A stretch of DNA of 64,000 bases from Prorocentrum cordatum (lineage: Eukaryota > Sar > Dinophyceae > Prorocentrales > Prorocentraceae). Position 1 is the stretch's first letter. Every line of letters begins with the position of its first letter. The position numbers were made by a program, and so were the translations under genes. The stretch lies in contig CAUYUJ010004335.1 of assembly GCA_963575745.1 (NCBI GenBank), positions 56,001 to 120,000 on the forward strand, read 5' to 3'. The notes below the pieces were generated by a model. The model was not told the origin of the DNA. It saw nothing but the letters and a program-made list of their open reading frames with translations, and searched no databases. Below are positions 19,233-44,656 of this stretch, one piece after another.

Positions 19233-19552
19233 AGTAAATATGCTCCTCTCCGCCTCATTGTACACTTGCCTCTCCTGCTGCCTGCCTTGCCACACCTTGA
19301 CATTGGTATTATTGTATACCGAAGCTGTATCATACTGCTCGAGTGTGAAAAGGAGCGCGCCGGGGCGCGCGGGCGGCTCGCGTCGTCGTCTGTCTCTGGC
19401 CGGCCTCGTCACACCCTATACTTGAGTACAGTTGCTTAACGGATAACCTACAGTTTCATCGATGTCTCATTCCGTATCCTCTACCACTGAGCATAGTCAA
19501 CATGAGACCTTAACTCCTTTGGCAGCATACCCCGATTTTCAGAGGAAAGACT
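19233..19552 (+). repeat. 5' LTR (320 bp)
   Basis: It begins AGTAAATATGCTCC and ends GAGGAAAGACT. It aligns base for base with 42522-42839 with about 16 substitutions and a 2-base indel (GTGTGAAAAGG versus GTGTGAAGG). Canonical TG...CA ends are not present at the boundaries given by the duplication. The gag ATG at 19462 lies inside the LTR. Confidence 0.9.
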
Positions 19553-21342
19553 GGTTATCAGCCCAAACCCGCGACCAAGTCGCAATAGGGATGAGCTATG
19601 ACGAGATAACCGAATTGCCCGCTGGATCACGCGGTGTGTATCGAGACGGGCAAGAACATCAGGACAGCGGCCCGGGGGAGGGCCGCTCTCTTTCTTCTTC
19701 TAATCCCATTCGGATTTCTCGTGGAAGGGGCGCGGGAGAAGCCATAGATTTGTCAGCAGATGATTCCCCCACTCGTATTCCGATCAGGGATCGTGAACAG
19801 ACCCCATACCCGAAAAGGCGGGACGGCACAGCCGTAAATGCCAGGCGAAGAGCCTTTTCATCTTGGATTGCTGAATCCTCAGAAACAATACATTCCAGCC
19901 CGATTGCCGTGCGTTCAATCGAGCCGGCCGCTGGCCCAGCCAGTGGGTCGCAAGACGTAAAGGAGTCCGGCGGTGCGGTCCCCGCCGTCCCAGACGGTTG
20001 GGGTCGTACGCACGAGACTCACCCCATCCCGATAGCCTTGAACGGGCAACCCGGTCAAGACAGCGACGAACAGCTTGATGACGAAGACGATATCAGCTCC
20101 ATGGAGGCAGACATAGAGTATGCCAATTATCAAGTGTCACCAAGACGAGTTTTGTCGCTGAGGAACGCTGCTGACCACCCCGTCCAAGACGGAAGGTCAT
20201 CCCCTGGGCAAGAAACCGTTGACTACGATCACCTGGAAGCCCTTGGGAAGGCGCTCGCAGAACCAGATTTAGACACCACGATCAGCGACCTACCGCCCCA
20301 GGCGGCGGAGGTAGAAATGAGTTCCCAATTTCATGTGAAGCATGACCGGGAGACCACGGGTCGAACGCCGGCTCCTCAACATAAGAAGCACAAGAACGAA
20401 TATTATGATCTGAATGCTTCCCCGCTTCAGGAGGGGTTCTATCGGGCTGCCGTCGCCCCAGGCGATTGGCAACCGTCCGTGCCCGCGGTAGTTGAGGACA
20501 ATGATATGTTCGACCCCCCAGCAACGCTCACTGAGTTGGTCGAACAGGATGAACGGGATGAGGAGCGTCGAGAGGTGGCCAAGCCACCGGAGAGCACGCA
20601 CGTGTGCCCTCGATCGTCAGCTTCGAGCAGGGGAAGGCCCAAGATGCCACGATCTGGTGCCCGGTCGACTTCGAGGAGTAACAGTGCCATATCCATGCGT
20701 GAGGCATGCTGGAACCGAGGCCCCGACTGCCCGCCACAGGCGGAGAACAGGTGCCCGGGGAAAGCTCACAAACAGGACGGACCCTGCAAGCGTCCAGTGT
20801 GTGGATGCTGTTCTGACGTGTGTCCTAATTGCGGCAATCACTGGTTGTGTGGGGATTGCGTTCAGATGGAAGAACATAACTGCCAATGCCTTTTCATTCA
20901 AGCTATGCAGGACCAGGCCAGATTCGTTGAGGCCAAGGGACAGCAAGAAACCGTGATCCTGGAAGCTCAGAGGGCCGAACAGGCTCGACCGGATCGAGAA
21001 GAAATGAACGCAGTTATTGCCGATGTTCGGAAGAGGTTCGAGGCCGATAGAGTCGCCATGGCCCAAGCTGCCAGTCGGCGGGAACAAGAGTTGATGGAGC
21101 AAATGTCTTATCAGACCGCGTCTGCTCAGCAGCGTCCGGAAGAAGAAGCCGAGAACAGGATTGTTGAGGCGAGATCTTCTGAGCGACAGGCTGCCCTGGT
21201 GGCAAACAGACAATCTGTCGATGCCAAGTCCGCCTGCGCCGCTGTTGCGGTGGCGAGAATGGAAGGACATGCTCCAAGACCAACTTCGTGCTGCCAGGCT
21301 AGAAGTGGCCGATGCGCAGATTGTAGCTGCGACGATTGTTGA
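19462..21342 (+). pseudogene. Gag, N-terminal part, with Cys-rich module
   Basis: The 626-codon frame starts with MSHSVSSTTEHSQHETLTPL inside the LTR. It runs through acidic, low-complexity sequence to a Cys-rich module at 20707-20895 (CPGKAH, then CGCCSDVCPNCGNHWLCGDC), which looks like a treble-clef or B-box-like zinc site. A Gln/Glu/Arg-rich coiled-coil segment follows. The last ~20 codons before the stop at 21340-21342 are out of context, and the coiled coil resumes in the next frame, so a frameshift lies near 21260-21280. It probably forms the particle. Downstream methionines such as MSYDEITEL are alternative starts. Confidence 0.6.
19553..19563 (+). other. Candidate tRNA primer binding site
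   Basis: GGTTATCAGCC directly follows the LTR; with the preceding T it reads TGGTTATCAG. It resembles the TGGTATCAGAGC site used by many copia elements for initiator-Met tRNA, with one extra T. The priming tRNA of this organism is not known to me, so the assignment is tentative. Confidence 0.5.
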
Positions 21343-21919
21343 TCAGAACAATCAGTGCCGAGAAGAGCTCAAGTTGCATGAAAATATTAGAGCATCACTT
21401 CAGCGAGTGCAATTAGGTGACGAGGTGTGCCTGCCGGCCAAGCCGGCGGGGGCGAGCGGGCGACCGTCGCCGGCGGCCCAGCCGTCTGGTGCGACGTCGT
21501 CGCAGGCCCGGCCTGGCTCGGCGCCCCCAGGAGGCGGAATGCCGCCAATGTTGCGCGTAAGAGCTGCTCAGAAGCCGCAGTCTTCGAAAGGGGGCGCCGA
21601 AGAGAATTGTTCAATATGCTCGAGTCCGAAGATCGAAACATGCGCTACTTGCGGATTGCCAAGCTGTAAGGACCACTTTGACACGGGCGCCAGACGTTGC
21701 GTCACTTGTACTCAACGAAAGAGCCTGCCCGTGGAACAGGCGGAGTGGGATGGGCAATGGCAGCGACATAGCGCTGATCCCAATTTTCGGGCCCAACAGC
21801 AGAAGCTCCTCGATGATTTTTACGCTGATAAACGTAATGTGCAACGGATGAAGGAGCAAGCTGAGGAACAGCTTCGACTGAGCTCAGAAAGGTCAGCTGC
21901 CAACCTTCGAGAAAGATGA
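21280..21919 (+). pseudogene. Gag, continuation in a second frame, second Cys-rich module
   Basis: Coiled coil (KDMLQDQLRAARLEVADAQI) is followed by a Gly/Ala/Pro linker with two hairpin motifs (21433-21447 and 21474-21484). A second Cys-rich module follows at about 21607-21715 (CSICSS, CATCGLPSC, CVTC). The stop at 21917-21919 appears caused by a frameshift at about 21905, because the helix continues in the next frame. Confidence 0.55.
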
Positions 21920-22778
21920 AGCATTGGCACGCGCAGCTGCATCAGAGAAAGAAGTGATTGAGTTCAAGGCTGTCATCACTGAATCCTTGAAAGAAAAATG
22001 GCAAAATGTGCAGTCTCAATTGCAATCTGCTGACCGTGAGGCGGCCATGATCGAAAGGGCTCAAGAGATGACGAGTACTATGGGAATGGAATACGTTCAA
22101 TAGATCGAGAAAGAATTGGACAAGTTGCCCAGGTTCCGTCTGTTCGATATGCCCCAGCTTTCACAGGGGACGCCCGTGAGGCCAATCATGCAATCCCTTC
22201 ATTCTGTCCCTGGCCCTGCAACCGAAGGTCCAGCCAAGCCTGGCATCTCCGGGAACAATGTACCCATCAATGCGGAGTTGGCAGGTATTGCTGATGACAT
22301 GACCTTCATTAACTATTACCCTTTCACCAAGGCGGGGCCAGCGAGACCAACGACGGCCCAGCCGTCTGGTGGAGGTAAGGGTCATGCGCCAGCGGCCACG
22401 CCGCCTGGCGGGGCAGGGCAAGACAATGATGGGGATGATCATCGTACCGCACCAAGTACCGAGATCTTGTCAGCACTCGCCAATGCCATTCGAGACCAGT
22501 CGGAGAAGCCGCCCCCAGGGGGTCCGGGGGGTTCTGGATCCCCAGGAGGTGGAGGCGGTCGTGGCGGACCTCAGGGCCCAGGAGGGCCAAATGACCCGGG
22601 AGGTCTTGACGAGAGCACCCCTTTGGATCAGTGGAGACAGGTTGGGAACAACCAGAAGGTCGATCTGATGGACATTCCCGATGTTACAAACATGCGGGAG
22701 TGGCAGATGCATGCGGTTCGTGCTGTTGCTGGATCGTCTCCTGAGATTCGGGAAGCGCAGCTCTGGATCTGTGACTAA
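21909..22778 (+). pseudogene. Gag, third frame segment, with in-frame TAG
   Basis: Helical sequence (EKDEALARAAASEKEVIEF) continues to an in-frame TAG at 22101-22103. It then goes on in the same frame with EKELDKLPRFRLFDMPQL and a Gly/Pro-rich linker. The end (NMREWQMHAVRAVAGSSPEI) begins the copia-type Gag core, which continues in a different frame from about 22770. Confidence 0.55.
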
Positions 22779-24174
22779 AGAACAGCTCAGACATCCGGGT
22801 CGCTTCCAACGTCTAGATATCATGATCGCCACTAACCTGATCAAGAAATTTAATAAACTGCGTCGGAATCGCAGTCTTTCCACTCATCACATTCACTTCC
22901 CCCAACAGATCAATCGCATGGAATGCGGCGCCCAGAATGAGAAGAGACCCTTAACAGGGCGCGAAATGAAACGAGCCATCTGCCATTGGTGTTCAGTCAG
23001 ATCGGAGTTAGGTCAACATCGCATTTCGCTTGACATCTTCAAGGTAGTTATTGATCCCAATCGCCCAGATGCTGATTTATACCATTTCTATAATGAGTGG
23101 ACAGATGTGTATTAGCAACTCTACGGCGTGCGACCCCCGTCTGATGAGATGCGAGCTTCGATCCGTGCACACTTCATTGAGCAATGCAGGAAGCCGAAGA
23201 AATTGGAGCTAATCTGCCAGCTTTATGATTTGTCCACGGACAAGCTAGGAGAAGGCATGAAAACCTATGAGTGGCTCATAACCCAGATTGAACGGATGAT
23301 GTTGCGTGAGAAGGAAGAATGGAAGATGCATTTGCATGAGGGTACTTTGAATCAACGTGCTCGACAGACGCGCTTGGGCGGCGGCGGGGGCAACGGCGAC
23401 GACAACCGCCGAGGCCTCAACGGCGAAGCCGCTGCGGCAGAAGTGGCAGCGCGTCTTGGGAAATCCACGGACGTTAAGAAGAATGGAGTGACGAAGGGCG
23501 AGACGACGTGCAACTTTGTGCGTAGGGGCGAGACCTGCCCGCATGCAGGTCAGGGTTGCCCGTTTAATCATAAGAAGCCCAAAGCCGCCGCTGCGGCCCA
23601 GCCGGTTGCGGGGGCTAAATCGAATGCTGCCCCGGCTCCGAATGCGAGTTCCAGAGGGGGGTCTGAGAAACCCAAAGGCGGAGGCCGAAAGGCACAGAGC
23701 CGCTCGCAGACCCCAGCGGGTGGCCGTGGAAAGGGTGCGCAGCAACGGAATAGGGGCCAATCCGATCGTTCGCGCGGAAAACAGAGCAAGTTGCCGTGTT
23801 ACCCTTATTCGCGTGATCCTAAGGACTGCCGTGGACCCCCAGACGGTTGCTACAGGCAACGCAGAGCCTTGACCGACGCAGAAAATCTCAAGCGTGACAA
23901 GTATGAACAAGCGAAGCTTAATGCGGGACAGGCTCTGGGATATGAGCGCACGATTAAACAAGCCAGTGCCGCTGCTGCCAATGTCTCTTCATCTGCGGGT
24001 GGTGGTGGCTCTAGGGCCGCCAGCTCCAGTTCGGAGAGACGCAGAGGAGATGGAGACAAAGGCAAAGGCAAAGGCAAGGGCAAGGACATGATGTGTCGTT
24101 CTTTCAAGGAAAAGGCAAAGTGCACGCGTGGAAAGGATTGTTGGTTCGCTCAGACCACGCCCAACCATCCGTGA
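22770..24174 (+). pseudogene. Gag core and CCCH zinc fingers
   Basis: The helical core (IATNLIKKFNKLRRNR, LQ-type UBN2-like region) is interrupted by TAG at 23113-23115 and resumes directly (PPSDEMRASIRAHFIEQC, LELICQLYDLSTDKL). A CCCH finger lies at 23509-23571 (C-x8-C-x6-C-x3-H, ending CPFNHKK). A second C-rich module is near the end (MMCRSFKEKAKCTRGKDCWF). Fingers of this type bind RNA and replace the CCHC knuckle of standard copia Gag. Serine/arginine/glycine-rich linkers separate them. Confidence 0.65.
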
Positions 24175-24530: not shown

Positions 24531-25964
24531 TTGCAAATTTCCTGCGCCCTCTTTCTCGGGGCGCTATCAAGATGTATTGGAGCGACCCCCCCAGCAAGAG
24601 TTGCATTCGATCTCAGACAAAGGGTCGGTGCAAATTCCGCGTGCGATTTCACCCCTTCGACTGCGGGGCCCGCCATCGCTCGTAGGAAGGCGCGTCGCCA
24701 CGACCTGAAAGAGTTGCCCTCGAGTGACGAAGACAGGTGGAGGTTCCCAGCTGAAGTGCGCCAGCAGTTATCCACCCAGTGGAGAGCGTCTGCGGCGGAG
24801 GCCCTAATCAAGGCATCAGACCTACAAGATGATGTCTGGCACCTTTGGTTGAGGACCGAGGATGGGGAAGAGGGCCCGCGCGGCGCAGCCGCTGCGGGAT
24901 GTGCAGACAAAGATGCTGCATATCTTGGAGCGCTGAGCTTTATCATTGATACAGGGTGTGGGTATAACCTTATAGCGGAAAGATACATTAAAAGTGCAGG
25001 TGCGATGAGATTGATTCGAAAGCTTCCGCAATCGATCACTCTGAATACTGCCGGGGGGAAGTCAAAAGCCCCCGGCTCAGTTCGCATCGCGTGCCCTAAA
25101 TTTAAGGGTGGTAGTTTTAACGCAGTGGTCATGCTGGAGACTCCGTGCGTGATCTCGGTAGGAGAGCGGTGCATGGATCGCAGCTTTAGTTTCTTCTGGC
25201 CAGCAGGCCGAAGGCCCTGCCTTCTGTTGCCCAACGGTCAAAGAGTGGACCTGATCGTTGAGGGCAAGATTCCATACTTGATCCCTTCAGGCAAAGAGGC
25301 GCTGGGTCAGTGGATGTGCGCGGTTGCCGCTGGGGAGGGTGAAACTCCCGAGCGGTGGTGTTGCGTGGCGCCAGGCGCCAAGGCATTTCTGGATGATGTG
25401 GAATCGGCGGGAGGCCCTCCGCCCCGTGCTGTTCAGACTCGCGTAACCATAGACTTGCATACACATGAGATGATTGGAAACCACAGCTACGTTGACGGAC
25501 GGCCGACTGAATTCGCGCCCGTTTTCCCATCCTCATTAGACTCTGCGGATACCATCTTTTATTTCTACTATTTGCCTTGTAAGGCTAGCGAATGCGGTTG
25601 GATTCGGGCACCTACCGGCATCGCTGCCTCCATATGTTTCTCGACTTTGCCCTGCCGCGGCCAAGCCGTCGGTGGGGCCGACGATCAGCCCGGCAAAGCC
25701 GTGGCCTGCGCAGCCGCATATAAGAGCCCTTGTTGGTACGGGGTTACAGGATACCTTCCCTCCAACATGGAGCAAGGGTTGGACTCCGATGCGTGCGACG
25801 CGGCCCCCGGGCCCGAGGAGGGTGAAGTTGGAGACGCTGACGGTGTCGACCTAGTCGACATCGACGCACCGTCAGAACCGGACCCAGATGATGCGGAGGT
25901 TGAATGTCGGGTTCCCTTGCCGAGCGGCTTAAGAAGGCCGCAGCCTCCCTTCCGCATCTCCTAA
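24531..25964 (+). pseudogene. Retropepsin-like aspartic protease region
   Basis: The 477-codon frame carries GALSFIIDTGCGYNLIAERY with the catalytic Asp-Thr-Gly at 24948-24956, set in the usual hydrophobic-hydrophobic-DTG context. The second conserved region (CPKFKGGSFNAVVMLETPC) and LLLPNGQRVDLIVEGKIPYL follow. Such proteases cleave Gag-Pol in the particle. The acidic tail (PSEPDPDDAEVEC) leads to integrase, which continues in another frame from about 25904. Confidence 0.7.
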
Positions 25965-27008
25965 CTCATACCCCCAAGAACCCATATCGCTCAGTATGCA
26001 ATTGGGCCAAAGCTCTCAGACGACAGCAGCGCAAAGCGCGCAACAAAGGGCTGAAGGTCCCCCGCCCATGCGCCAACCCCACTTCGTTCGGACACCTACC
26101 TGACGACGATGGATCATTGGTTTGCGATGGATGAACTCTCGCGGGGGCTCCACGATGAGACCGCGTGCGTGATTTTTCGCGACCGAGCAACTGATTTTCT
26201 CGCCGCTCAGGGTGTGCACGACAAGTCTGCGGTTCATATTTGTAACTTTCTAGTAAACCTTAAAGCCCCGGGAGAGAAGTTAGAATCTTGTTATGCTGAT
26301 GGTGCGCGCGAGCTTGCAAGGGCATGTTGCGAGCTCAAGATTGCCCATGATCTTACCATTCCACGAAACAAGAAGCAAAACGCTGTTGCCGAACGTGCAA
26401 ACGGCGTGGTACAGATGGAGACTCGGGCTCTTCTCATGCAGGCCGGTCTCCCACCGCCATATTGGACGTATGCCGTCAGATATTTCTGTTTCTGCTGCAA
26501 CGCCAGGGCCCGTGAGGGGGGGAAGTCTAGTTGGGGGCGTCGCTTTGGACATCAGTTTGAGGCACCGCTTCTTCCTTTCGGGTCTCTTGTGCGTTATGTG
26601 CCCCCGCCAGAATCGAGATTTCGGATCGCCAAGACTGGCGGTGCAATGGTCCCTGGGTTATACCTGGGGTATGTGCACAAAACGGGGGGGATGGTTGGTC
26701 CAGAGAGCTATGTTGCGCCGCTTAGACAGCTAGAAGGACTTAACATGGAATCAGGGCGCACGCCTGAAGGCAAGCGACCCACCATTGAGAAGTCCGATCA
26801 GGTCTACAGCAACATCCTAGATGGCACTGCTGACGACCAATCGCCCCAATTTCCAATGAGGAAAGCGTACGAGAAGGCGATGACTGAAGTGCGCTCCGTT
26901 ACGATCCCCCCCGCTGGCGAAGCCGCGGCCGTCCCAGACGGTTCGGGGCAGGGGTCCCCGAGGAGGCGAGGGCGCACCGCCGCCAGACTCCGAGGCCGAT
27001 TCCGATGA
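25904..27008 (+). pseudogene. Integrase (zinc domain plus DDE core), frameshifted
   Basis: The N-terminal zinc domain is in one frame (HLLTHTPKNPYRSVCNWAK; H-x3-H then only one clear Cys of the usual C-x2-C, so possibly damaged). The core runs in another frame from about 26109. DHWFAMDELSRGL carries the first Asp, YADGARELARACCELKIAHD the second Asp (26298-26300), and NAVAERANGVVQMETRALLM the Glu (26391-26393). That spacing and the AERANG context match Ty1/copia integrases. The tail GGAMVPGLYLGYV is the GKEGVFVGY-like C-terminal motif. Confidence 0.75.
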
Positions 27009-27033
27009 TGACGACGGTCCGGGGGGCTCGTGT

Positions 27034-29685
27034 GTGGACGACGAGCCTGTGGTCATTGACGGAAGGGGCCCACAGCGAGACTCTCGCCCAGACGAAGATC
27101 AAGATCAGAAGTTAGGTCTCGCTCACATTGAGTGCCGCTTGGGTCGTCAATCTAACTTTTCGGCGGCCAAGCCGCGCGAAAAAGTCCTGGGGAAAGGGCA
27201 GCTCCTTGTTCGCGCGACTCAGAACCTTGATACGATGGAATACTATGAAGACCGGCGCATTGCCGTTTGTCTAACGAAAGATGAGCTAACACAAAAGCTT
27301 CCATTGACGGGCCGTCGAAAAACATGCAGCATACGAATTGTACTTTATTATGATCCTGACTACGTTCCCGTGACCCGAGTGTGGGTTACAGACCCAGATC
27401 CGAAATGCGGTGCTCAATGGCTACAGAAATTGCCCGAATCCACCAATCCTGGCATTCATCCCGGACACTGGTTCAACGTGAATCAGGCTCATCGCCGACA
27501 GGCAGTTGAGCAATACAAGGCCGAGAAGAGAGGATTCTTTGGCATTGACGACCCCGGCCCTTGTCTTGCCTTACTGCGTGATGTAGGCTTGGGCGGGGAA
27601 GATCCAGCGACTCCACCCGGGCCCGCAGTGGCCAAGCCGCCCGCGGCTCGTCCACTCTCTGAGGAGGATGCCGCTTATCTTGCGACACATCCAAAGGCAA
27701 GGAGAGCCGCTCCGCGGGTCGTTGAGCGATTTCGGAGACAGGCGGCACAGAGCGGCCAAGCCGCAGCTGTGGCCGCCGAATCTTCCGCGGAGGATGACTC
27801 AGGCGACTGCCTTTCGGATGCTGAGGACGTCTGGTGGAAGCAAACTTGGTGCAGGGGTGCTATCGCACGTGATGGTGATCCCCCCGGCCCAGTCGGTAGG
27901 GGCCCATTATCCGATGCGGAATCTGAGGTGGCACAAGAGGCAAGCCTGCCCTCGAGCCCGGCGGCCGCCGCGTCGCGGCGAAGCGTGCCTCGAATGCCGT
28001 TGCAGCGTAGCTCGGCCCCAATGCCAAGTCACCGTGAAAAAGAAAGGTTTGACTTGGATTACCTGTGCAACCCTTTTACTGATCTCATCTCAGTTGTCGA
28101 CGAGCCCTTTCAACTCCCCAATGAATGGCGACAGACTCGGATCGATGCCGCTGTAGCGCGATCGGTTTCCAAAGTCGAAGCCCAGGCGAATCAAGATGCC
28201 AAGGCCGCCTCGAGAAAGGAATGGAACCGATTGCGAGAAATAGGCACCTGGGACGAGAAAGGCGTCAAATAATATGCTGATGTTGTTGCAGAACTCAAAG
28301 GGAGGACTGCCCACTTCGGTCGTCTATTCGCGATCCTAGTCGAAAAGAATATCGAGCTGCCGCTAGGACACAAAGACCGTAAATATAAAGGTCGGGTTGT
28401 CTTCGACGGTTCTAGCGTGAGAGATCATAACAAAGATGTGGCGTTGTTTCAAGAACTTTCCAGCGGCCCTGCTACAATGCAGGCTAGCAAAGCTGCTGAC
28501 ACCTACGGGCTCTTCGAAGGCCATAGTATCGAACAAGCCGACGCCCGTCAGGCCTACGCTCAATCAAAGTTGGGTGGCACCCCAGCATGGGCATTTCTGC
28601 CCCGTGATGAGTGGCCTGAGTCCTGGTCGCATATGCGCAATCCCGTGTGCCCATTGATTTTATCTTTGTACGGGCACCCTGATTCAGGGGGGCATTGGGA
28701 GCAACACTGCGAAGGGCATGTTACGGCTAACGGCTTCGTCAAATGCAGCCCGTGGCGCAGCTGTTATTTCCACGCAGATTTGAAACTTTTCTTGATAATC
28801 TATGTTGACGATTTTAAGCTGGCCGGTCCTGCCGACAAGCTAGCCCAAGGATGGAAGCTGTTGCAATCCCCATCTCCCAATTGCCCCGAAGGCATAGAGA
28901 TAGACCCTCCGACAGCGGTCGGACCATATTTGGGTTGCGAACACAGGTTATCCATACAGCTTGTCGAATGGCAAGGTGAGTTGCCCACGATTTTGGACCC
29001 GCCGCCTCCAAAAGTCAAGAAGAACGCATCCGTCCCAGACGAGAGCGATGAGGAGGCCACGGGGGGTGACTCAGCGGCCCAGCCGCCAGAGCCATACCAA
29101 CCTAGAGAACCCAAACAGGCCAGAGTCATAGACTACGACATGACTGAATTCTTCGATTCCTGTGTTACTTTATATGCCCAACTCAGAGATACTGGCCCAG
29201 CTACGTATCCTGCTGCAGGTACCCCTTGTGGCCCCGAACTTGCCGATCTCGAGGACGGCCGCGGCGGGCCTCGAGGCGAAGTTTACTCTCCTGCGGAGGA
29301 GGCCATAGCATCGGCCTTGAACGTCAGTGTTGACGTTGGGCCCCCAGACCAAGAGATCGTCGTGCACGGCCTTGAAGCCGCAGCGGCCAGCCCGAACGAT
29401 CTGGAGCCACCGACCCAGTCGGGCGTGCTCCAGCCCATTGCGGCGAAAGTCTTGATGAAGATCCTATACGGTGCGAGAATGGCTCGATATGACCTTCTCC
29501 GCGCTATTTGCCATGCAGCGAGTTGCATAGCCAGATGGACAGAGCAACAAGGCACGGATCTTTTCTGCCTCATTTGTTATATCAAGTGTACTTCTCACTA
29601 CCGCATGTCTTCATGGGTAGGTGATAGAATGGAGGGTGTCTTGTTGAAGCAATACTCCGATGCGGATCTGGCCAGTGACGTCTGA
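27034..29685 (+). pseudogene. Copia-type reverse transcriptase (RVT_2), one in-frame stop
   Basis: A variable N-terminal part (27034-28020) with several hairpin motifs precedes the RT. The RT starts near ASRKEWNRLREIGTWDEKGV. TAA at 28270-28272 interrupts it and the same frame goes on (YADVVAELKGRTAHFGRLFA). Conserved motifs follow: GRVVFDGSSVRDHN, QADARQAYAQSKLGG, LSLYGHPDSGGHWEQH and the catalytic YVDDF at 28801-28815. The carboxylates of YVDD and of ADARQAY are present. After an Ala/Pro-rich insert the connection domain leads to YSDADLASDV, the first RNase H aspartates. The stop at 29683-29685 follows a frameshift. Confidence 0.85.
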
Positions 29686-30794: not shown

Positions 30795-30835
30795 TTGATC
30801 AGCGTCGCACATATGCAACCAACGTCCGCCATGGT

Positions 30836-33561: not shown

Positions 33562-34876
33562 TACGGGGCCGATGGGAGTCGATGGCGAAGGGAAGGACCC
33601 GCCCTACCTTGGGCGTAGTCCCTGGAACGCCCTCGACTACCGTCGGCACAAGGGTGAGTTCGCCGAGGACCCCAAACCGCCCACGCATGAATGGGAGGTT
33701 CGCGTGTCCGAGATTCTTCAGCTTTATGTTGAAATAACAGATCCTCGATTGAAGGCCTGGACGGGCAGTTTGTCGTTCCTAGAGAAGTGCCAGGCCATGG
33801 CCCAGGTTGCCCGCCAGAATGGGCACTCATGGGTTCAATTTGTTGGTGAGGACATTGCGGCCATGATGGCGACCGGGAAGCCCCCCGCGGACTTTTCCCA
33901 CCGTTTATGCTTGATGCAACACGAGCAATGCAAGTTTTGGTCTTGTTCTATTCATATCGTTTCTGATTCTACGGTCTCGTTCAAAACGGCGGCCGCGCAG
34001 AAAGTCACATCAAGCCATTACATTCAATACTTCATGCACGAGCTTGTTCATGGCATATCTGCCAACGTCATGGGCGGCTGCAAGGGCCCCGAGCTTCGGG
34101 AAGCCGCCCAGTCGCACAATTGGTCGAGCTCCGGGCATCAGCATTACGTGAAAGGAGTCCATAGTCCAGTGCGGTTTATCTTCTGGTCCTTTAATGATAT
34201 TGCCGATCAGACGACATTTAATTTGCTTGGCGTTCGCGCCGAAGGGAAGCGGCATGAAGACCCTCCGCTACTCGCTGGAGCCCTCCGAGTGATGCTCGAG
34301 ACAGCTGATCGCATCATAGACGACGCAATTAAGCGATCGCCTGATGGTGCGGTTGAGATTTTGTACATTGGAGGAGACCACAGGTGTTGGAAGTCCCCTG
34401 ATGGAGGTTGCGATATTGACCCTATGTGGGACGACGTCGCCACCCTGGTCCGATGTCGAATGAACCGTCGGATTGAAGACTATAAGGCCGCGGGGATATG
34501 CCCGCGCATCCTGATTCTTGACGGCGCATGCCTTTACCGCAGGTTGAAACACCCTGCTGGTGATTCCTACCATTTTCTGTCAGAGCATAGTGAATATAAG
34601 ATAGACAGAGACGGACAAATGATGAACGGTAAGGCGGCCGAGATGTTCGCAGAACACATGTTAAAGGCTGCAAACTTGCTGCTCTGTTCTTTTGCCAACC
34701 CTCCGGTGGCCCAGCCGTTCCGGGGGGTAACCCATCGCCGGAGAGAAGAGACGATGGGCACGCGGCAGAGGAGGCTACCTTCAAAGAGCTTGTCAGGCAT
34801 TGGCAAGCATGGAGCCCCACTGAGAACAATATGCCCAAGTCTGTGTTCAACGCTCGTCCTTTTCGGACACCTTTGA
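33560..34876 (+). CDS. Accessory domain 4: SGNH-hydrolase-like
   Basis: The frame, open from 33293, carries a globular domain from about 33560. Three blocks fit the SGNH/GDSL esterase layout. Block I is HIVSDSTVSF, with the putative nucleophile Ser in the S-D-S at 33962-33970. Block III is FIFWSFNDIADQ, with Asn-Asp at 34193-34198. Block V is AGDSYHFLSEH, with Asp-x-x-His at 34562-34573. The spacing (about 75 and 120 residues) is acceptable. A Gly-Asp block II is unclear. SGNH esterase domains are known in ORF1 of CR1/L2 LINEs, not to my knowledge in copia elements. A role in membrane or lipid interaction would be inference. Confidence 0.4.
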   Translation, partial: DTGPMGVDGEGKDPPYLGRSPWNALDYRRHKGEFAEDPKPPTHEWEVRVSEILQLYVEITDPRLKAWTGSLSFLEKCQAMAQVARQNGHSWVQFVGEDIAAMMATGKPPADFSHRLCLMQHEQCKFWSCSIHIVSDSTVSFKTAAAQKVTSSHYIQYFMHELVHGISANVMGGCKGPELREAAQSHNWSSSGHQHYVKGVHSPVRFIFWSFNDIADQTTFNLLGVRAEGKRHEDPPLLAGALRVMLETADRIIDDAIKRSPDGAVEILYIGGDHRCWKSPDGGCDIDPMWDDVATLVRCRMNRRIEDYKAAGICPRILILDGACLYRRLKHPAGDSYHFLSEHSEYKIDRDGQMMNGKAAEMFAEHMLKAANLLLCSFANPPVAQPFRGVTHRRREETMGTRQRRLPSKSLSGIGKHGAPLRTICPSLCSTLVLFGHL

Positions 34877-35046
34877 GCCCCGTTAAGTTCCCTGCCGTCC
34901 AAGACGGGACAGGGGACGGGGCTATTCATTCCAAGCTTTCCAACAATTTCATTGGTTTTCTCAAGCGAGGGAATGTGCACACATAATTCTATCCCTGGCG
35001 AGATCATCGATATTTCTTACCGCGATGTCTTCCCTTTTGTCCGGGC
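34877..35046. other. Short junction between accessory ORFs
   Basis: It holds one hairpin motif with a changed stem (34895-34907, CCGTC-CAA-GACGG). No complete frame spans it; a frameshift probably separates the neighbouring proteins. Confidence 0.4.
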
Positions 35047-36314
35047 ATGCCCCCGAAAGAGGAACGCCTCCGATTGCTTACGGAGGGAGTGCAAAATGAC
35101 CAACACATGCGCCCTGCGTTAGAGGAGCTGTCGAAGGTAGTGCCTGTTGCCAAACCCAGCGGCCCAGCCGCCTCGGGTAATGTTACTGCAGGGCGGGCGG
35201 CCCAGCCGTCCCGCGAGCCCTTGCTCGCCCCTGTAACGTGTGTACAGGACGCCAAGACGCCCGGCGAAGCGGCGGAGGACGCTATCCGTGCGAAATGTCC
35301 TGTCGGCGTGGGAGCCAAGCTCAGCGGCGGAAAGAGATTCCCCAAGCGCCTCAGAGCCGGAGGCAATCCCAACAACGATGCTGATTGGGAAATCGATTGG
35401 CCTGTGCACCAGTTGTATCAGGACGTTAAGAGATTGCCCTATAGTGATGCATCGAGCACGGATCCACTGTATTTTCATTTCCTCCGACCGTTCACTGCGG
35501 AGAGCGGTGAGCTCAATAGACTTATGATGCCTGGGAACTGCTACCCAGGGGAGGGTCGAGTTGAAAAGGTGGCGAACGGAGAAAATCCGGCCCGCAGCAA
35601 AGAGTTCAAGACCATCCAGATTCATGCCCCAGGAGAAGCTTGGTTGGGTGGCCAGATGCTACATACGTCCACGAAGACCCCTGTCTTGGACCCTTTCTAT
35701 ATGGTTCCCACTTGGGCACGGTTCTTTGTGATTAAGGCCGATCGGTCATGCGAAGATCCAGAGGCCACCGTTGCTGATCGCCTGGATTGGGCGAAATTGT
35801 CGACCAAGACCCACAAGGCAGGAAACATACAGTGTACACAGCTCACTTTGCCCTTCTTTGTAACGGCGGACAAGCTTGAGGAGGTCCAAGACCCGTCCTC
35901 AGGCTGGAGCAGACTGTCTCACGGTACGTCTGTGACCGCCTCCATTCAATATTGGAGGGCCACCAGTTGCCCCCGTCGAATCCCCGCTACGGCGGGGGTA
36001 TCAAAATGGGACGCGTGGGCGTGTATTCCTTCCCTTGCATTGATGATCCCTCTACACGCACTACATATTCTGTTGCAGAGGAGACTTTTGGAGATGGCAT
36101 CTGTGCAACAGCAGGGGCTATATTCTATGCAAAGCCATTGCGCATCAAGGGAAGGCTAGATCAGTTTTGTACACTTGACCCATCCCAGATGGTGTTAAGT
36201 GAGCTTCGCTTGTGCCATTGGACGCCGACGGCCCTTCACGTCACTCAGGCTTGCACTTTCTCACAACATGTCTCCAGAAATGAAATTGCCCCTGGAGCAA
36301 GACTTCGGGGTTGA
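35047..36314 (+). pseudogene. Accessory domain 5: ADP-ribosyltransferase-like, one frameshift
   Basis: The first frame (35047-35945) gives a globular region (DPLYFHFLRPFTAESGELNR, APGEAWLGGQMLHTSTKTPV) ending SGWSRLSHGTSV, with His-Gly-Thr at 35920-35928. The continuation in the next frame reads ILEGHQLPPSNPRYGGG and GRVGVYSFPCIDD (GVYSF at 36018-36032), then YSVAEETFGDGICATAG. The order HGT, I-L-x-x-G, G-V-Y, Tyr is that of PARP/ART folds, which bind NAD+. The final Glu of PARPs is not identified. The target is unknown. Confidence 0.4.
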
Positions 36315-36960
36315 GCGTTATCGCGACAAGGAGAGAGTGGATGCCGCGGACCAAGTCCGAGAGGCACAGAGACAGTGGGTCCCAAACTTGGGGCCCATCA
36401 TCTGGCAGGAGGATCGTAGTCCTTCCCGTCCATATCGCCCAGAGTTTGATGACATGTGGCCATGGCTCCAAGACAGGGGAGTTACAATTACTAGGACCAA
36501 CCCGTTGCATAAGGATGAGGCCTCGGATAAATCCAAGGCGCTTGTTCGGGTTCATAAAGAAAATGAAGACAAGGCCAAAGCCAAATCATCGGCGGATGTT
36601 CGCGCCCAGGCGCCTGCGGCCAAGCCTTCCGACGCTTCATTTTCGCTTGCGACCGAGAATTTTCCCCTTTTGGGGCGGCCTGCGTCGCAGGCTGAGGGGG
36701 TGCCCCATTCTCCGCCCGGCTCAGCCGTGGCTGAGGTGGCGCCTCCTCCTCCACCGACAGGCGCAGCTGCGAGTGTGGTTGTGCCTCCGCCTCCGCCGAG
36801 GGAGGCGCCGTCATTAGATAGGTCAGAGGACGCCGTGACAAAGATGGCGCCGCCACCGGCCAAGCCGGCGAACGTTATGCCGAAGAAGGGTCCGCCCCCA
36901 GTTAAGCTGGCGGACGATGTGCCAAAGAAGCCTCCGCCACCATTCGATGCGAGGAGTGTT
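36268..36960 (+). pseudogene. Accessory ORF 6a: helical then proline-rich linker
   Basis: Starting MSPEMKLPLEQDFGVERYRD, it has a charged helical part (VREAQRQWVPNLGPIIWQED) followed by repeats of PPPP, AKP and KKGPPP. Hairpin motifs are frequent (36856-36868). A frameshift near 36960 moves the linker into the next frame. No family is recognised. Confidence 0.35.
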
Positions 36961-36965
36961 GCCCA

Positions 36966-37860
36966 ATGGCGAAGCCTCCACCGGCCAAGACGGCTGGCGC
37001 TGATGTTGGAGCCGATCGCCTCCCAGATCGATCGACTAGCGCCGCAGCGACTGAGGAACGGCCACCAGCTAGGCCCGCCGATGCTGCGCCCACGGCCGCG
37101 CAGCCACCGGCCAAGCCGGCTGGCGCAGGGGCGACGGAAGGCAAGCCCCAGGCTTGGCCAGCGCCTCCGGGTAGGCCAACCTGGGCACCGCGTCTCCGTT
37201 CGCCTCCGCCTGCTCCCCAAGCTTCGAGATGGGCGGTTCGGCGTCAACCATTCGCTGACTACAGACGTCAGCAAACTGACGCTGCGCCCAAGGCGGCACC
37301 TCAGCAGTCGCAATTTAAAACTTCTCCTGGGCCTCCCCCGTCCGCCCAAGGCGGTGCTGGGGCGAACCCGGCGGCGAAGACCGAGGGCCCAGCGGCGATG
37401 GCTGTAACCGTTGAAATAGAAGCCAAGACTGCCGAGGATGCGGGCTCTGATCGCCCCGGAGGCAATGAAGGGCTGGGCGCTCCTGCAGCCCCTCCCCCGA
37501 ATCAGATGGGCGGAGACCCCTCGTCAGAGGAATCTCCGGCTCCAGAAGGGAGTGACGCTGCGTCCAATCTTGTCCGGACCATCAAAGAGGTTTCACATTG
37601 CCACTATGTCGGCAATGCGCTCAAGAATGAGCGCGGCTTTTTCAGTCAGTGGAGTCGTGCAATTTCCGCGGACCCAGCGATCGAGGGGGGTCCTGCTAAT
37701 TTGCAGGAAAAGGATGTGCAAATTGAAGCTGCAATGAAGGTATACAAGATTGCTCAGAGAAAGAGAACGCATCAGCCAGGTGATTGCTCGAACCCGTGGA
37801 AGAAATTTGCTGCTACTGTTGTAGACAATATCCAGAACGCGAAATCTCTGATTTCTCTCC
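36966..37860 (+). pseudogene. Accessory ORF 6b: proline-rich linker with a small globular segment
   Basis: About 190 Pro/Ala-rich residues precede a globular stretch (SNLVRTIKEVSHCHYVGNAL, GFFSQWSRAISADP, ANLQEKDVQIEAAMKVYKI) ending near 37840, after which the frame shifts. No family is recognised. It may be a helical adaptor between catalytic domains. Confidence 0.35.
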
Positions 37861-38740
37861 TACTCCTGAGATTGCTGCCGAGAGCGAGCGTCCCCAGCCT
37901 CGCACTGAGAGCGGCCCGATCGAAGGTGGACACAGGGTGCCTGCTCCCCCTGCGCCTCCATCCGGCTCAGCTATGGCAGTAGGTGCACCTAGGCCTCCGC
38001 CTGGCCCAGCCAGAGCGGAGAACACACCGTCGCAGAGTGACCCGATGCAGTTTGAATTGGGTGCTGTTGATGCAACGCGTACTGCGCCATGCGAGGTTGC
38101 AGAATCATCCCCTACCAGGGAAGTCAACAGCTCTTCTGATGACGTGGCTGCGCCCGCTGTGAAGGCAGCCCCACCAGTCGCCGCTCCGAGCGGACAAGAC
38201 GTTGCGGAGCCTTCCCTAGCGAACAGAGCCCCAGGTGTCCCAGACACGCCGGGGTCTCTTGAGGCCAGCCTAGGTCTTGGTGACCTCCATGAATTTCCGT
38301 ATCAGGGTGACCCTGACCTTATCTTCCTCGAGGCGGATAATTATCGGTCTGGCGCAGCGGCGACCAACTTCTTCTGCAGAGCGACACTGCCGCCTTCCCC
38401 TGGTATGCGGCAGCCTAACCCGACGGCAGATCAGTCCCGTCCGGGCGGAAATGAGGTTACCGTTGGCCATGCTGACACATTCAGGGGCAAGGAGCTCTAT
38501 CTTTCGCAAAACGACCGCATTCGAATTATTGAGAGCACGCCTGTTCAGTTGAAGCGGCGAGTTCGAGAGGCTCCTACTACTGGTCCTGAACCTCCTGGTG
38601 TCGAGGCTCTTCGTGGTAAAACGTTTGATACGCTCAAACGCATAGCGGAGCTCGTCGTGGATCCCATATTTGCGTTGTTGGGCGAATTTTCCGTGGACGT
38701 AGATAGTTCTGAGAAGGTGCGGGGTTTTCTCCGTGCATAA
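37850..38740 (+). pseudogene. Accessory ORF 6c: linker and unassigned domain before the KptA-like domain
   Basis: The Pro/Ser-rich part is followed by mixed sequence (DLHEFPYQGDPDLIFLEADN, TFRGKELYLSQNDRIRIIES, KTFDTLKRIAELVVDPIFAL). The TAA at 38738-38740 is followed in the same frame by continuing protein-like sequence (FYSDAPSGFDPRVFKALTPL), so the stop is probably a lesion. Confidence 0.4.
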
Positions 38741-39690
38741 TTCTATTCTGATGCTCCCAGCGGATTTGATCCTCGGGTCTTTAAGGCCCTGACTCCGTTG
38801 GCTGTGGGCGTCCCTGACGACGAAAATCCGACGGCCCTGGGCTCTGCGGATTTTTGGCGACGCCACAGTGGTCGAGTAGATGTATTTGCGAAGTGCATTT
38901 GAGATTTTGCTACGTACCTCGCGAGACATTGTTCCGATTACGCCAGGTCTTCTGGAGGTTGGGTCTATTTTGGAGACCTAGTGGACAAGATGCATGAAGA
39001 TGGGTATGAGCACCAAACAGTGGCACTTGCTGCACACGGCCTAGCCGCGCTGCAGCCAGGGACCGTGGAAGTCCTAGGTATGCTTCCTGATGACCTTGCT
39101 TGCATCAACGAAACCAGTGTTCATCGGCAATGGCGCGACTTTAAGAGTTGGCCCCTTTTAGGGGAAGGGGCGGGCTAAATGTCCCGTCCCCGTTTTCTAT
39201 AGAGCATGTCAGGGGCATTCCACGTTTGTTGCCCCTACTGAAAGGATGTATGCGCCTTATGGCCCTGGCCTAGCCAGGTGTCGTGGGGTTCTCCTCCATT
39301 TTACGGACATGGAGGCGCTGATGGGATCAATGCTCGGGGATATTCAGTTCCCTAAGAGCACATCAGGCCTTTGTCTCGAGGCGGACTATGGCTTGTTGAG
39401 GCTTCTTCCGGCCAAGCGGGATCCGATCATGCAAAGCCCAGGTCATCATCCCTCCTGGCTAAGCCAGCGTAGGGATGGAGAGAGTGTTCCTGCGAAAGAG
39501 CACCGCGCCATGGGCCAAGCCCCGAAGGCGGGGGAGCCTCCTACGATTGGATCATGGCCCACAGCGGACGCAGTCCGTCTGTGGGACCAGCATCCAACAC
39601 ACAGAGATTCCTGGCCACTTGTTCTTGTGTCCAATGGCCGTGTGCTTACCCGGTTTTCGTACCGGGTCTGCCGCGACGGGACCCTTGTGT
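38741..39690 (+). pseudogene. Accessory domain 7: Tpt1/KptA RNA 2'-phosphotransferase-like
   Basis: Tpt1/KptA enzymes use NAD+ to remove an RNA 2'-phosphate and have a winged-helix lobe and an ART lobe. After an in-frame TGA near 38900, the first lobe is LARHCSDYARSSGGWVYFGD then LVDKMHEDGYEHQTV, like the family LRH ... GWV..DLL. After a frameshift near 39165 the second lobe has YRACQGHS at 39198-39221, matching the signature RA-x-QGH, then VLLHFTD (His 39297-39299, the usual HGT position, here HFT) and VSNGRVLTR near 39630-39650, like S-x-NGVVLT. The LRH Arg and the second His are kept; the Thr/Gly of HGT is changed. Confidence 0.55.
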
Positions 39691-40844
39691 CCAATGAAGT
39701 GCCAAGGTTCACCGACATAGGCAAAGCTGTCACTCTTGCCACAGTCGACGATTGGCCAGATGTGAACCGAAAGTTGACTTCTTGGTCCCTTGTCTTCAGT
39801 CAGGAGTGGACCTCGTATGAGGTAGATTTTGATGACAGTTCCATGCTTGGTTGGATTCACGCTGACGAGACTGTGACACTGCGGCCAGACTTTAGAAGCT
39901 GGTCTGACAGGGCAGACGCATTCATTCGATCTGTTCCCTGGGATAACGACGGTCGGTTTCTCTGCGCTGACCTGCACTGGGTGCGGACTGGCTTCGGCCG
40001 TTGCCCCTTTTGCAGTAACCCAGTGAGGTGCAAGTACATGGTTGCGCACAATTACTTGCTCCAGTCACTCAAGACGAGAACCATTGAGGACTCACTGTGG
40101 AGAAATGGCTTCAAGCTGACCGTTCCTGATCATGACGCCTTTTCCTGGACGCAGGATCGGTATGTTAGAGAGAGAATAGAAAGGCAGCGTAGAGCGTCAG
40201 CGGATGTCATGACGAACATCAACAACAATCTGAAGCTGGAGCGTAAGTGGGCAGAAGGTGGATACATTGCGATGGCTGCTTCAGGTCAAACCTTTGGCAA
40301 CAGCCGCCCTGGCAGCGTTCCTGCGTGGTTCCCTGGCGACGCCGCGGCCCAGCCGCCGGCGCGTCACGGACCTTTCTTCCAGTACCTTGAACCCCTCAAG
40401 AGGCGATTCATAAAATGGCTAGCATGCTTGGCTGAGAGAGAAGGGGTTGAGGCACCAACGATCGCTGAGGGGTGGCCCCTGCTTTGGGCCAGAGATATCG
40501 ATCAGTATGCGCGTCCCTTTTCTTGTCCTGCTCTGGCTGTTTTCGACTGGCCAAAAACACATGACTCGTACATTTCACCCGACGAAGGTTGGGATGAATG
40601 GGAGCGCAGCGTGCGGAGGACTGATACTTTTGTGACGACACTTCAAACGTTGCGAGACGCAAAAACAGGAGCCGCACCCTGTTTGCCCGATGCACACGAC
40701 ACCGGCGCGGACGCCACAGGGCCCAGCCCTCGTGGACGTCCGCCGGTTGCCTGGGCGGATCGGCTTGTTGCTCGTCCTGCCGTCGATCCCAGTCTGTATC
40801 CAGGCGCGACAAAATCTGTTCTGATCATCCTCTCAGTGTTGTGA
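39690..40844 (+). CDS. Accessory domain 8: unassigned region downstream of the KptA-like domain
   Basis: It continues the frame that begins at 39180. It has a globular composition (DIGKAVTLATVDDWPDVNRK, SLVFSQEWTSYEVDFDDSSM) and a possible zinc site (CPFCSNPVRCKYMVAHNYLL; C-x2-C-x5-C-x5-H) at about 40004-40060. A Trp-rich end (DEGWDEWERSVRR) follows. No family is recognised. Hairpin motifs lie at 40344-40356 and 40718-40730. Confidence 0.4.
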   Translation, partial: SNEVPRFTDIGKAVTLATVDDWPDVNRKLTSWSLVFSQEWTSYEVDFDDSSMLGWIHADETVTLRPDFRSWSDRADAFIRSVPWDNDGRFLCADLHWVRTGFGRCPFCSNPVRCKYMVAHNYLLQSLKTRTIEDSLWRNGFKLTVPDHDAFSWTQDRYVRERIERQRRASADVMTNINNNLKLERKWAEGGYIAMAASGQTFGNSRPGSVPAWFPGDAAAQPPARHGPFFQYLEPLKRRFIKWLACLAEREGVEAPTIAEGWPLLWARDIDQYARPFSCPALAVFDWPKTHDSYISPDEGWDEWERSVRRTDTFVTTLQTLRDAKTGAAPCLPDAHDTGADATGPSPRGRPPVAWADRLVARPAVDPSLYPGATKSVLIILSVL

Positions 40845-41930
40845 AACCTGTCGCCGGCCAAGCCGAGACGACAGGTAACGAGGGGCCCGATCCGATTCCC
40901 CTCGACTTCACCGCTGTCTGCGGGTCCCAGACCCAGCAGATGCTAGACGGGATGGTCAATCTTGACCTGCCCGATGGACAGGTGTACCCTCGCAATGATG
41001 ATGGCACATTGAGCGTCGCAGTGACGAAGCAGGAAGCCATCGATGTTGCTGCGCAATATGTCATGGAGCACACATGCTATAAACCGGACACGGGCGCCAC
41101 CAATAGGTTGTGCCTAACGGGAGAATCGACGCATGTTGTCCCTGACGATGTGCGACAGGCCATTGTGCGGAATTGGAAGATTCCCGTTAAAGACCTCGAA
41201 TTGGGTCTTCGTGCCATGCGTGTGTTTGTGATCGTCCGCGAGCTCATCAGTTGTTTTATTGCCGAGGGGTATTATTGCATATCCCATGCATGGGCTCTAT
41301 GCCCGCGACGCAGCCGCAGGGTATGACACCGATGGGCGCCGCACTGACGCATGCGCGCTCGATTGCCGTATTCGTGCGGCTGTCGAAACGGACGACCTCA
41401 TTGAGGCGTGGGCCCGCGACTTGGGTAAACTGCGTCGTGCAGAGATCCGTCGCCAGGGCATGATGTTGCAAGATGCTGTCTTCTTCTTATACCCGTTCGC
41501 GGAATCAACTGAAATCCAGGACAGCGACGAAGGCCCCTTTCGCTCTGCCTGTGGCAAATATGGTGCCTATGTCGCTACTGCCGCGAGGGGTATTGTAAGA
41601 TACGCGAAATTGCAGCATGACGTCCGTCTTCGTGAGGAAGGAGGCGCTGACGATCCCTTCGACGGCCCAGCCGGTTCGGAAGGGGCTCCCGTTGCGCCAG
41701 CAAGGCCAAGCCTTGCTGCTCGCCCAGCTCCGCCTCCTCCGCCTCGAAGGCCCGACGTCCAAGACGATCGGGCCAACGATGACATTACTGAGTCTCCTTG
41801 CTCCGCCAGCGGTCAAACCGTAACGGCGGGAGAGGAGTTCTCGAGACGTTCGTCTGGCGGGGACGCGTGGGATCGGTCCATGTCCGCGCGCGCGCGCCGG
41901 GGCCATGGCTGCCGGCCGCGCTGCTGGTGA
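40841..41930 (+). pseudogene. Accessory ORF 9: unknown helical protein, one frameshift
   Basis: The first frame (40841 to about 41260) reads CGSQTQQMLDGMVNLDLPDG, KQEAIDVAAQYVMEHTC and VPDDVRQAIVRNWKIPVKDL. The second, from 41259, reads LIEAWARDLGKLRRAEIRRQ and LQDAVFFLYPF then an Ala/Pro linker. Three hairpins lie in that linker, including the 8-bp stem at 41699-41717. No function is inferred. Confidence 0.35.
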
Positions 41931-41973
41931 CTGCAACTCCGCGATCCACTGCCCTTAGTACACGGCGGATGGA

Positions 41974-42270
41974 TTGCAGGGATACTGGATTCACCGTGAT
42001 GTAGTATACTGGATGACTCGCAGAGAAAAACTGAGTCGTCTGTGGCACTCTGTGTCCCCGAACGACTACGGCTACTACTTCCCAAGAGAGGAAGGCAAGG
42101 GGTGCGCCAAGAGCAAGGGCAAGTCCAAGAACATCCGGCCAGCTCCCTACGCTGGCCCTGGCAAGGGAGGCAAGTCAGCTGTGCCTCATTGGACAGCTGG
42201 ACAAAAGGGAGGATCATCGTCTTCGACTCCGAGACCTCCGGCTCCGCCTCCACACTCGCGGTTCCTCTAG
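41974..42270 (+). CDS. Accessory ORF 10: small basic C-terminal ORF
   Basis: 99 codons. An aromatic start (YWIHRDVVYWMTRREKLSRL, DYGYYFPREEG) is followed by a Lys/Gly-rich tail (GCAKSKGKSKNIRPAPYAG). The tail resembles nucleic-acid-binding ends. It is the last open frame of the element, about 250 bases before the 3' LTR. Confidence 0.4.
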   Translation: MQGYWIHRDVVYWMTRREKLSRLWHSVSPNDYGYYFPREEGKGCAKSKGKSKNIRPAPYAGPGKGGKSAVPHWTAGQKGGSSSSTPRPPAPPPHSRFL

Positions 42271-42515
42271 TACAGCGAGTGAGGGCATGCGCGAGCCGTG
42301 CGACCAAATCGCTACGGCGCCGACCGAACGACCCAGTCGTTTCGGCGGAGAGGCTTTATTTTAACTATTGGTGGGATTCGTCGGGTTTTCTTCGGCCCTC
42401 AGCCCCCTGGCAACCACCGTTGAGCGGTGAAATGCTTTTGGGGTTCGCTCCGGTGGCTGTAAATATGCGCGGGCCGGGTGGGCCGTGGCTGGATGGACTC
42501 TGCGAAACCCGCCGC
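42271..42515. other. 3' untranslated region of the retrotransposon
   Basis: No recognised gene; GC-rich sequence between the last open frame and the purine tract. Confidence 0.5.
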
Positions 42516-42521
42516 GGGGGG
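42516..42521 (+). other. Candidate polypurine tract
   Basis: A run of six G immediately precedes the 3' LTR (GCGGGGGG then AGTAAATATG). Such tracts prime plus-strand DNA synthesis in LTR elements. It is short, so this is a positional inference. Confidence 0.5.
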
Positions 42522-42839
42522 AGTAAATATGCTCCTCTCCGCCTCATTGTGCACTTGCCTCTCCTGCTGCCTGCCTTGCCACACCTTGACATTTGTATTA
42601 TTGTATACCGAACCTGTATCATACTGCTCGAGTGTGAAGGAGCGCGCCGGGACGCGCGGGCGGCTCGCGTCGTCGTCCGTCTCTGGCCGGCCTCCTCACT
42701 TCCTATACTTGAGTACAGTTGCTTAACGGATAACCTACAGTTTCATCGATGTCTCATTCCGTATCCTCTACCACTAAGCAGAGTCAATATGAGACCTTAA
42801 TTCCTTTGGCATCTTACCCCGATTCTCAGAGGAAAGATT
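42522..42839 (+). repeat. 3' LTR (318 bp)
   Basis: Direct copy of 19233-19552 with about 16 substitutions and a 2-base deletion. It begins AGTAAATATGCTCC and ends GAGGAAAGATT. Confidence 0.9.

Positions 42840-44435: not shown

Positions 44436-44466
<31 letters not shown>

Positions 44467-44655: not shown

Positions 44656-44656
<1 letters not shown>

Follow-up and report, generated by a model that had tools for sequence, protein, structure and literature searches.

A selected accessory segment with a Tpt1/KptA-like domain in a 23.6-kb copia-type retrotransposon family of Prorocentrum cordatum

The usual picture of a retrotransposon is one of minimal equipment; a locus in the dinoflagellate Prorocentrum cordatum holds one with about 12 kb of further protein-like sequence. 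The stretch analysed (contig C4335:56001-120000, 64,000 nt, termed the window, whose positions are used throughout) contains a copia-like long terminal repeat (LTR) retrotransposon of 23.6 kb at 19233-42839 on the forward strand. Between RNase H and the 3' LTR lies ~12 kb of accessory protein-like sequence, on the same strand as pol and about twice the length of the part from protease to RNase H. The comparisons described here show that the family inherits this accessory sequence and that selection has maintained it: other copies are colinear, purifying selection acts on the segment, and an open reading frame (ORF) is shared with RNase H, which together argue that the segment is neither a passenger nor a nested insert. 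Much of the sequence after RNase H is conserved protein. We consider it probable that the copy in the window, an old and broken one, belongs to a repeated copia-type family whose selected accessory part would be made within a polyprotein and would include an NAD+-using enzyme of the Tpt1/KptA fold acting on RNA or DNA ends.

Further copies were sought in 4,128,499,153 bases of the genome (21,875 contigs). A query with the LTR gave 40 scored matches among 1211 candidates; this candidate count, like that of the domain-1 query below, is a loose first look and not a copy number. The 40 listed places included six pairs of LTRs on the same contig, the window's among them, spaced start to start by 23.1-24.0 kb in five cases and by 39 kb in one, and none of the six was spaced near the ~11 kb that an element lacking the 30-42 kb segment would show. 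Twenty pieces from seven other loci were compared with the window. Five of these loci (C13260, C5558, C13378, C969 and C12447) align with it from LTR to LTR at 85-91% identity, the segment at 30.0-42.5 kb included; C15877 aligns to ~35.25 kb with insertions (its 3' end lies outside the pieces compared), and C3592, for which two pieces were compared, aligns only to 22763. The loci had been picked for high LTR scores, four of them also for an LTR distance of ~23 kb, a sample that is not unbiased, so shorter family members are not systematically excluded. An earlier note on this DNA, made from the letters alone, had suggested a search for other copies with the same order between LTRs, and had named copies lacking the segment, or the segment as a nested element with its own ends, as grounds for abandoning the idea. 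The segment is carried by five of the seven other loci read, and neither of the two adverse situations was seen among them. As a separate observation, the accessory region of C15877 (L023:6198-8000) is broken by DNA with a non-LTR-type reverse transcriptase (RT) reading (LDLSSAFNTLDP, with YGVQQGDPLGP picked out by eye), which is probably a nested retroelement.

The layout of the accessory segment is given below, with the basis of each assignment; dN/dS is the ratio of nonsynonymous to synonymous substitution rates, SGNH refers to the hydrolases of that name and ART stands for ADP-ribosyltransferase.

30839-31950, + strand: accessory domain 1, called methyltransferase-like in the earlier note (motifs CCGPxSRIG, PCTGGSPWQ and EWP; dN/dS)
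31957-33558, + strand: accessory domain 2, unnamed, with a Pro/Gly/Ala linker at its end (dN/dS 0.53 for 31957-33150; by eye in sister-subfamily ORFs)
33590-34873, + strand: accessory domain 3, called SGNH-like in the earlier note (IVSDSTV, FWNFND and IGGDHRCW; dN/dS 0.42 for 33590-34640)
34987-35760, + strand: accessory domain 4, unnamed (dN/dS 0.43)
35761-36330, + strand: ART-like stretch (HGTS, GVYSSP), with the frame disturbed in the window (by eye; dN/dS 0.65 for 35761-36156)
36480-38280, + strand: Pro/Ala-rich linker region (by eye, dN/dS)
38903-39470, + strand: accessory domain 5, Tpt1/KptA-like (ARHC...GGWV, RACQGHS and LLHFT; profile comparison, dN/dS)
39471-40300, + strand: accessory domain 6, unnamed (dN/dS 0.39)
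40850-41650, + strand: accessory domain 7, unnamed (dN/dS 0.43 for 41292-41650; 40850-41230 without coding signal)

Selection was assessed from the window and the five full copies (15 pairs) in 28 stretches over the whole element. The frame with the fewest stops was also that with the lowest dN/dS in 26 of the 28, the two exceptions (40.85-41.23 and 41.70-42.36 kb) both lying inside the accessory segment. With bootstrapping by codon, dN/dS was 0.33 for integrase, 0.29 for RT and 0.41 for RNase H, and the nine accessory stretches treated in the same way gave 0.20-0.53, with upper 95% bounds of 0.32-0.82. The individual values were 0.41 (0.29-0.57) for domain 1 at 30839-31504, 0.53 (0.42-0.66) at 32-33 kb, 0.42 (0.33-0.53) for the SGNH-like stretch, 0.43 (0.32-0.58) at 35 kb, 0.52 (0.41-0.68) at 37.8 kb, 0.20 (0.11-0.32) and 0.53 (0.35-0.82) for the N part (38903-39160) and C part (39171-39470) of the Tpt1-like domain, 0.39 (0.28-0.52) at 39.5-40.3 kb and 0.43 (0.28-0.69) at 41.3 kb. 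The accessory stretches left out of the bootstrap (30.27-30.79, 31.51-31.95, the ART-like stretch, 36.2-37.98, 40.3-41.23 and 41.7-42.4 kb) had values of 0.56-0.78 in the fewest-stops frame, including 0.73 for the rest of domain 1 (31508-31950) and 0.78 in the open frame of 40850-41230. Since the pairs lack independence and some of the change postdates insertion, the values probably understate the constraint on the source copies. The accessory segment is under purifying selection.

The same was seen at greater distance. A genome query with P0010, a distant homologue of domain 1, gave 117 scored matches at 42-57% identity among 87,025 candidates. Of 23 classified domain-1 loci, 20 belong to a sister subfamily and three to the window's own. 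Between the subfamilies the domain-1 core showed a median dN of 0.124, a dS of 1.695 and a dN/dS of 0.08 (84 pairs), a figure lowered somewhat by the omission of stretches below 35% local identity; the set comprised 25 sequences, namely those of the 23 of 28 loci with ORFs longer than 250 aa and two others. The nine bootstrapped stretches and this value show the low dN/dS in the accessory domains that the earlier note had named as support.

RNase H, recognised by its ADIGTK motif, and domain 1 were found within one ORF in four of the 28 loci, three of the sister subfamily and one of the window's. The same combination occurs in one ORF of P0004, a protein from another source that is 62% identical over 60% of the query, and an ORF of C969 continues from RNase H into the initial portion of domain 1. 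At its beginning, at least, the accessory part is therefore fused to pol.

Homologues of the accessory domains were found elsewhere in a search over 5.8 billion proteins: 11 for domain 1, 11 for domain 3 and, among the best 8000 candidates by shared words, at least two for the Tpt1-like region (49 and 54% identical). Identities over the matched part range from 46 to 82%. Four of the 11 domain-1 homologues and all 11 of domain 3 carry the EukProt label Pyramimonas sp. AAC, a green alga by name; the proteins so labelled are P0002, P0005, P0006, P0011 and P0014-P0024 and reach 82% identity. Dinoflagellate contamination and transfer are both possible explanations of the label. A scan of IMG/VR with domain 1 returned one pattern match, which encoded no relative.

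The relationship of domain 5 to Tpt1/KptA was studied by comparing profiles, that of KptA being built from the E. coli protein and nine phage, bacterial-plasmid and archaeal-plasmid sequences. With full alignments, hhalign matched the element domain to the KptA family at E 0.0031; in the controls, other element domains scored E 0.42, 0.57 and 0.44 against KptA, and the Tpt1-like domain scored E 0.16 against C5-methyltransferases. Trimmed alignments gave a local score of 27.5 (E 0.0012), compared with a shuffled maximum of 21.5, and a global E of 0.00026 over 127 columns. The real score was reached by none of 100 and none of 150 local shuffles and by none of 150 global ones (0/400 in all). The alignment brings together RH, GW, RAxQGH, LxHxT and two later Arg; the catalytic Arg/His positions (RH, RACQGH, LxHxT, later Arg) are mostly kept, with the replacements given below. 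A Pfam scan of the domain gave no match, and the window copy is frameshifted near 39162-39175. These profile comparisons place the similarity of domain 5 to Tpt1/KptA above chance, in agreement with what the earlier note had read from the letters.

The other enzyme names fared differently. Domain 1 as a C5-cytosine methyltransferase scored at noise level against Dcm and six phage or archaeal-virus enzymes (E 0.11 and 0.24), with 32 of 100 shuffles scoring as high, and no Pfam DNA-methylase was matched in the 20 members scanned; the methyltransferase name is thus not upheld by hhalign for the C5 type, the one compared. Domain 3 as an SGNH hydrolase was compared with a single sequence, E. coli TesA, and 14 of 60 shuffles scored as high, so against that one enzyme the name found no backing. 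Pfam scans of the broken pieces of the ART-like stretch gave no match and the name rests on reading by eye; at 35.76-36.16 kb the dN/dS is 0.65 with no third-position excess, which either counts against the ART call or reflects the disturbed frame.

In the proposed mechanism, gag, pol and the accessory domains would be made as one very long polyprotein, which the element's own protease would cut apart. One of the products would be an enzyme of the Tpt1/KptA fold that alters RNA (or DNA) ends with NAD+; its most likely task would be the repair or protection of the element's genomic RNA or tRNA primer inside the particle. At this stage the other accessory domains would probably act as modifiers of RNA, DNA or host proteins. 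A wider proposal is that a copia lineage has made a Tpt1/KptA-type NAD+ RNA-end enzyme, together with at least one unnamed enzyme family, permanent in its polyprotein, as an RNA repair and modification kit that travels with the RT and has spread through a multi-gigabase genome. This is advanced tentatively, as a possibility that we hold to be somewhat doubtful.

Several observations weigh against the reading of the segment as part of a polyprotein with a Tpt1-type enzyme. It is likely that the whole 12 kb forms one reading frame, but the linkage in one frame was seen piecewise and the chain of overlapping ORFs breaks near 35.9 kb, so a second ORF there is possible; the chain includes off-frame links and was used as a hint only. 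Coding signal is weak or absent at 40.85-41.23 and 41.70-42.36 kb and in the ART-like stretch. None of the accessory pieces reached a cut-off in Pfam and NCBIfam scans, where the best weak Pfam match was Remorin_N (E 0.033) in the linker region, and a search of PDB sequences with the accessory domains found no solved structure below E 0.4. The hhalign probability for Tpt1 was only 10-19%, with a shallow query profile (Neff 1.6). In the RH pair, R is replaced by Q in P0013 and H by Q in one copy, and the histidine of QGH is R in two of six rows.

Four other explanations were weighed. If the segment were a nested element or captured host sequence in one copy, with no role in the family, it would be understandable that Pfam names nothing in it and that its length is unusual for copia elements; however, its presence in the same place and order in five of the seven other loci refutes this for those five full copies, and since selection acts on the segment, which shares an ORF with RNase H both at other loci and in a protein of another source, the idea retains hardly any credibility. 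A structural or targeting sequence, env-like or extended gag-like, whose likeness to enzymes is accidental, would fit the three of four enzyme names that have no profile support and the Pro/Ala linkers that join the pieces, and non-enzymatic modules such as chromodomains do occur in LTR elements (PMC6338049). The Tpt1/KptA profile match nevertheless survives 400 shuffles, and Cys, Arg, Glu and Trp positions are invariant or nearly so, which makes this account unlikely, though still one to be reckoned with.

Domain 1 could also be a far-diverged C5-cytosine methyltransferase, the element then being a copia counterpart of the Symbiodinium LINE and DIRS elements that bear DNA methyltransferases (DNMTs). 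By eye, the PC of PCTGGSPWQ and the E of EWP are placed like motifs IV and VI. Capture of DNMTs by dinoflagellate retrotransposons is documented (PMC5890265), but the same paper states that no DNMT domain is present in Symbiodinium copia elements, and with the noise-level hhalign scores and the lack of Pfam DNA-methylase matches given above this identity seems distinctly improbable. The main rival on function is that the accessory domains counter an RNA-based or NAD+-based host defence and do not repair RNA. It would account for the strong conservation of domains outside the basic retrotransposition enzymes, and helicase accessory domains of insect retrotransposons have been proposed to suppress RNA silencing (PMC6338049); we regard it as rather unlikely. 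The repair or protection of RNA ends by a Tpt1-type domain is the preferred reading. Were that enzyme a working one, the equipment of a mobile element would include RNA-end repair or an NAD+-dependent modification, a link between retrotransposition and RNA repair that could be put to a direct assay; this may also have a bearing on how such genomes come to be filled by these elements.

The remainder of the element comprises its ends and the gag and pol region, as follows.

19228-19232, + strand: left 5-bp target duplication, GTTTT (sequence read)
19233-19552, + strand: 5' LTR (repeat comparison), containing the first in-frame gag ATG (19462)
19552-19570, + strand: primer-site-like sequence directly 3' of the 5' LTR, present in seven of the seven copies looked at
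19462-24171, + strand: gag-like region with Cys/His-rich stretches and broken frames (profile scan, by eye, dN/dS)
24900-25961, + strand: aspartic-protease region, LSFIIDTGC (PF13975 at a weak E 0.02; by eye; dN/dS 0.51)
26055-26950, + strand: integrase region (motif by eye; dN/dS 0.33)
28100-28860, + strand: copia-type RT, YVDD (RVT_2 E 0.0077; dN/dS 0.29 for 28273-28860)
29401-30064, + strand: RNase H region (motif by eye; dN/dS 0.41-0.49)
42511-42521, + strand: short G-run at the position of a polypurine tract (copy comparison)
42522-42839, + strand: 3' LTR (repeat comparison)
42840-42844, + strand: right 5-bp target duplication, GTTTT (sequence read)

The two LTRs, of ~320 bp, are identical at 305 of 323 aligned bases (5.6% apart) and, with its frames broken, the window copy is old and defective. 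Its accessory segment consists of many pieces cut by stops and frameshifts, so the continuous protein-like sequence of the earlier note stands as protein-like in the frame and dN/dS test and on the same strand as pol, but not as one open frame in this copy. The LTR starts with AGTAAATATG and ends with GAAAGACT, but with GATT in the window's 3' LTR. Because the gag start lies inside the 5' LTR, the initial gag codons are duplicated in the 3' LTR. In six copies including the window, the target duplication is an exact 5 bp in three (the window, C5558 with CAAAC and C13378 with CTTCT), matches at four of five positions in C13260, is not clear in C12447 and is not judgeable in C969, where the 5' LTR end reads as a GGA repeat. 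The putative primer site, GGTTATCAGCC..., abuts the 5' LTR and is kept in the window and the six other copies looked at, with single changes in some; a run of six G precedes the 3' LTR in all six copies whose 3' end was read. Of the ends described in the earlier note, the LTRs and the duplication hold, the primer-like site is kept as a putative one, and the purine tract amounts to six G.

The order is gag, protease, integrase, RT and RNase H, with integrase and RNase H recognised by motif only, which agrees with the Ty1/copia order first noted. In the window, the protease matches PF13975 (E 0.02) and PF13650 (E 0.06) are both under Pfam cut-offs. The copia-type RT model RVT_2 matched the window at E 0.0077. 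Its best match, in another copy, had E 0.00019 and 21.6 bits, still below the Pfam cut-off of 31.6, so the copia-type assignment is made on anatomy and the RT is taken to be far diverged. A tblastn search of phages with the RT piece gave no match. A stop codon at 28270 in the RT region is common to the window and three of the five other full copies; some members of the family may therefore have depended on help in trans to spread, and the shared stop suggests either readthrough or a subfamily that was RT-defective as it spread. About 60 bases at 26954/26955 are present in five of six other copies and absent from the window. To the right of the element, at 43850-57204, lie eight (CGA)n-type arrays of ~460-670 bp, one every 1.3-2.9 kb, accompanied by an 84-nt repeat at 43726 and 45312 (80% identical); they are likely to form a tandem array of a larger unit.

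Compared with Ty1/copia elements (Pseudoviridae), the element is alike in its LTRs, 5-bp duplications, protease-integrase-RT-RNase H order and RVT_2-type RT (below cut-off), and differs in its 23.6-kb length, the gag start inside the LTR, the ~12 kb of conserved accessory sequence after RNase H and LTR ends that read AGT...ACT. The usual LTR ends are TG...CA. The Tpt1-like domain has RH, GW, RAxQGHS and LxHxT in the same order as the RNA 2'-phosphotransferase Tpt1/KptA, over 127-133 profile columns, but the C-terminal RxxVHLS block is not kept, there are long insertions, and the domain would lie within the polyprotein of a retrotransposon.

That retrotransposons capture enzymes is established: examples are DNMTs in dinoflagellate LINE and DIRS and charophyte Gypsy elements (PMC5890265), the GDSL and DEDDy enzymes of rotifer LTR elements (PMC5408684), AlkB in orchid Gypsy elements (PMC9289625), and helicases and others (PMC6338049). 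The titles and abstract openings listed by a literature search, outside which most subscription papers fell, gave no Tpt1, KptA or ADP-ribosyltransferase in a retrotransposon. Accessory enzymes as such are thus already known, and what appears to be new against that search is a Tpt1-like one in a copia element. SymbioLINE, SymbioDIRS and KnitGypsy-Dnmt3 (PMC5890265) are likewise dinoflagellate or charophyte retrotransposons that code for a conserved enzyme, but they are LINE, DIRS and Gypsy elements with recognisable DNMTs, whereas the present element is of the copia type and its domains are unnamed by the libraries searched. The bdelloid Vesta, Juno and TelKA (PMC5408684) also have extra enzyme ORFs in LTR elements; theirs is an ORF3 with a recognisable GDSL esterase or DEDDy exonuclease, in contrast to a long multi-domain extension whose beginning, at least, is joined to pol. 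The orchid Gypsy elements with an AlkB-type RNA demethylase (PMC9289625), at 25 kb, are similar in length and carry an accessory enzyme that acts on RNA, as is predicted here, but they are of the Gypsy type, with one named domain that was recently acquired.

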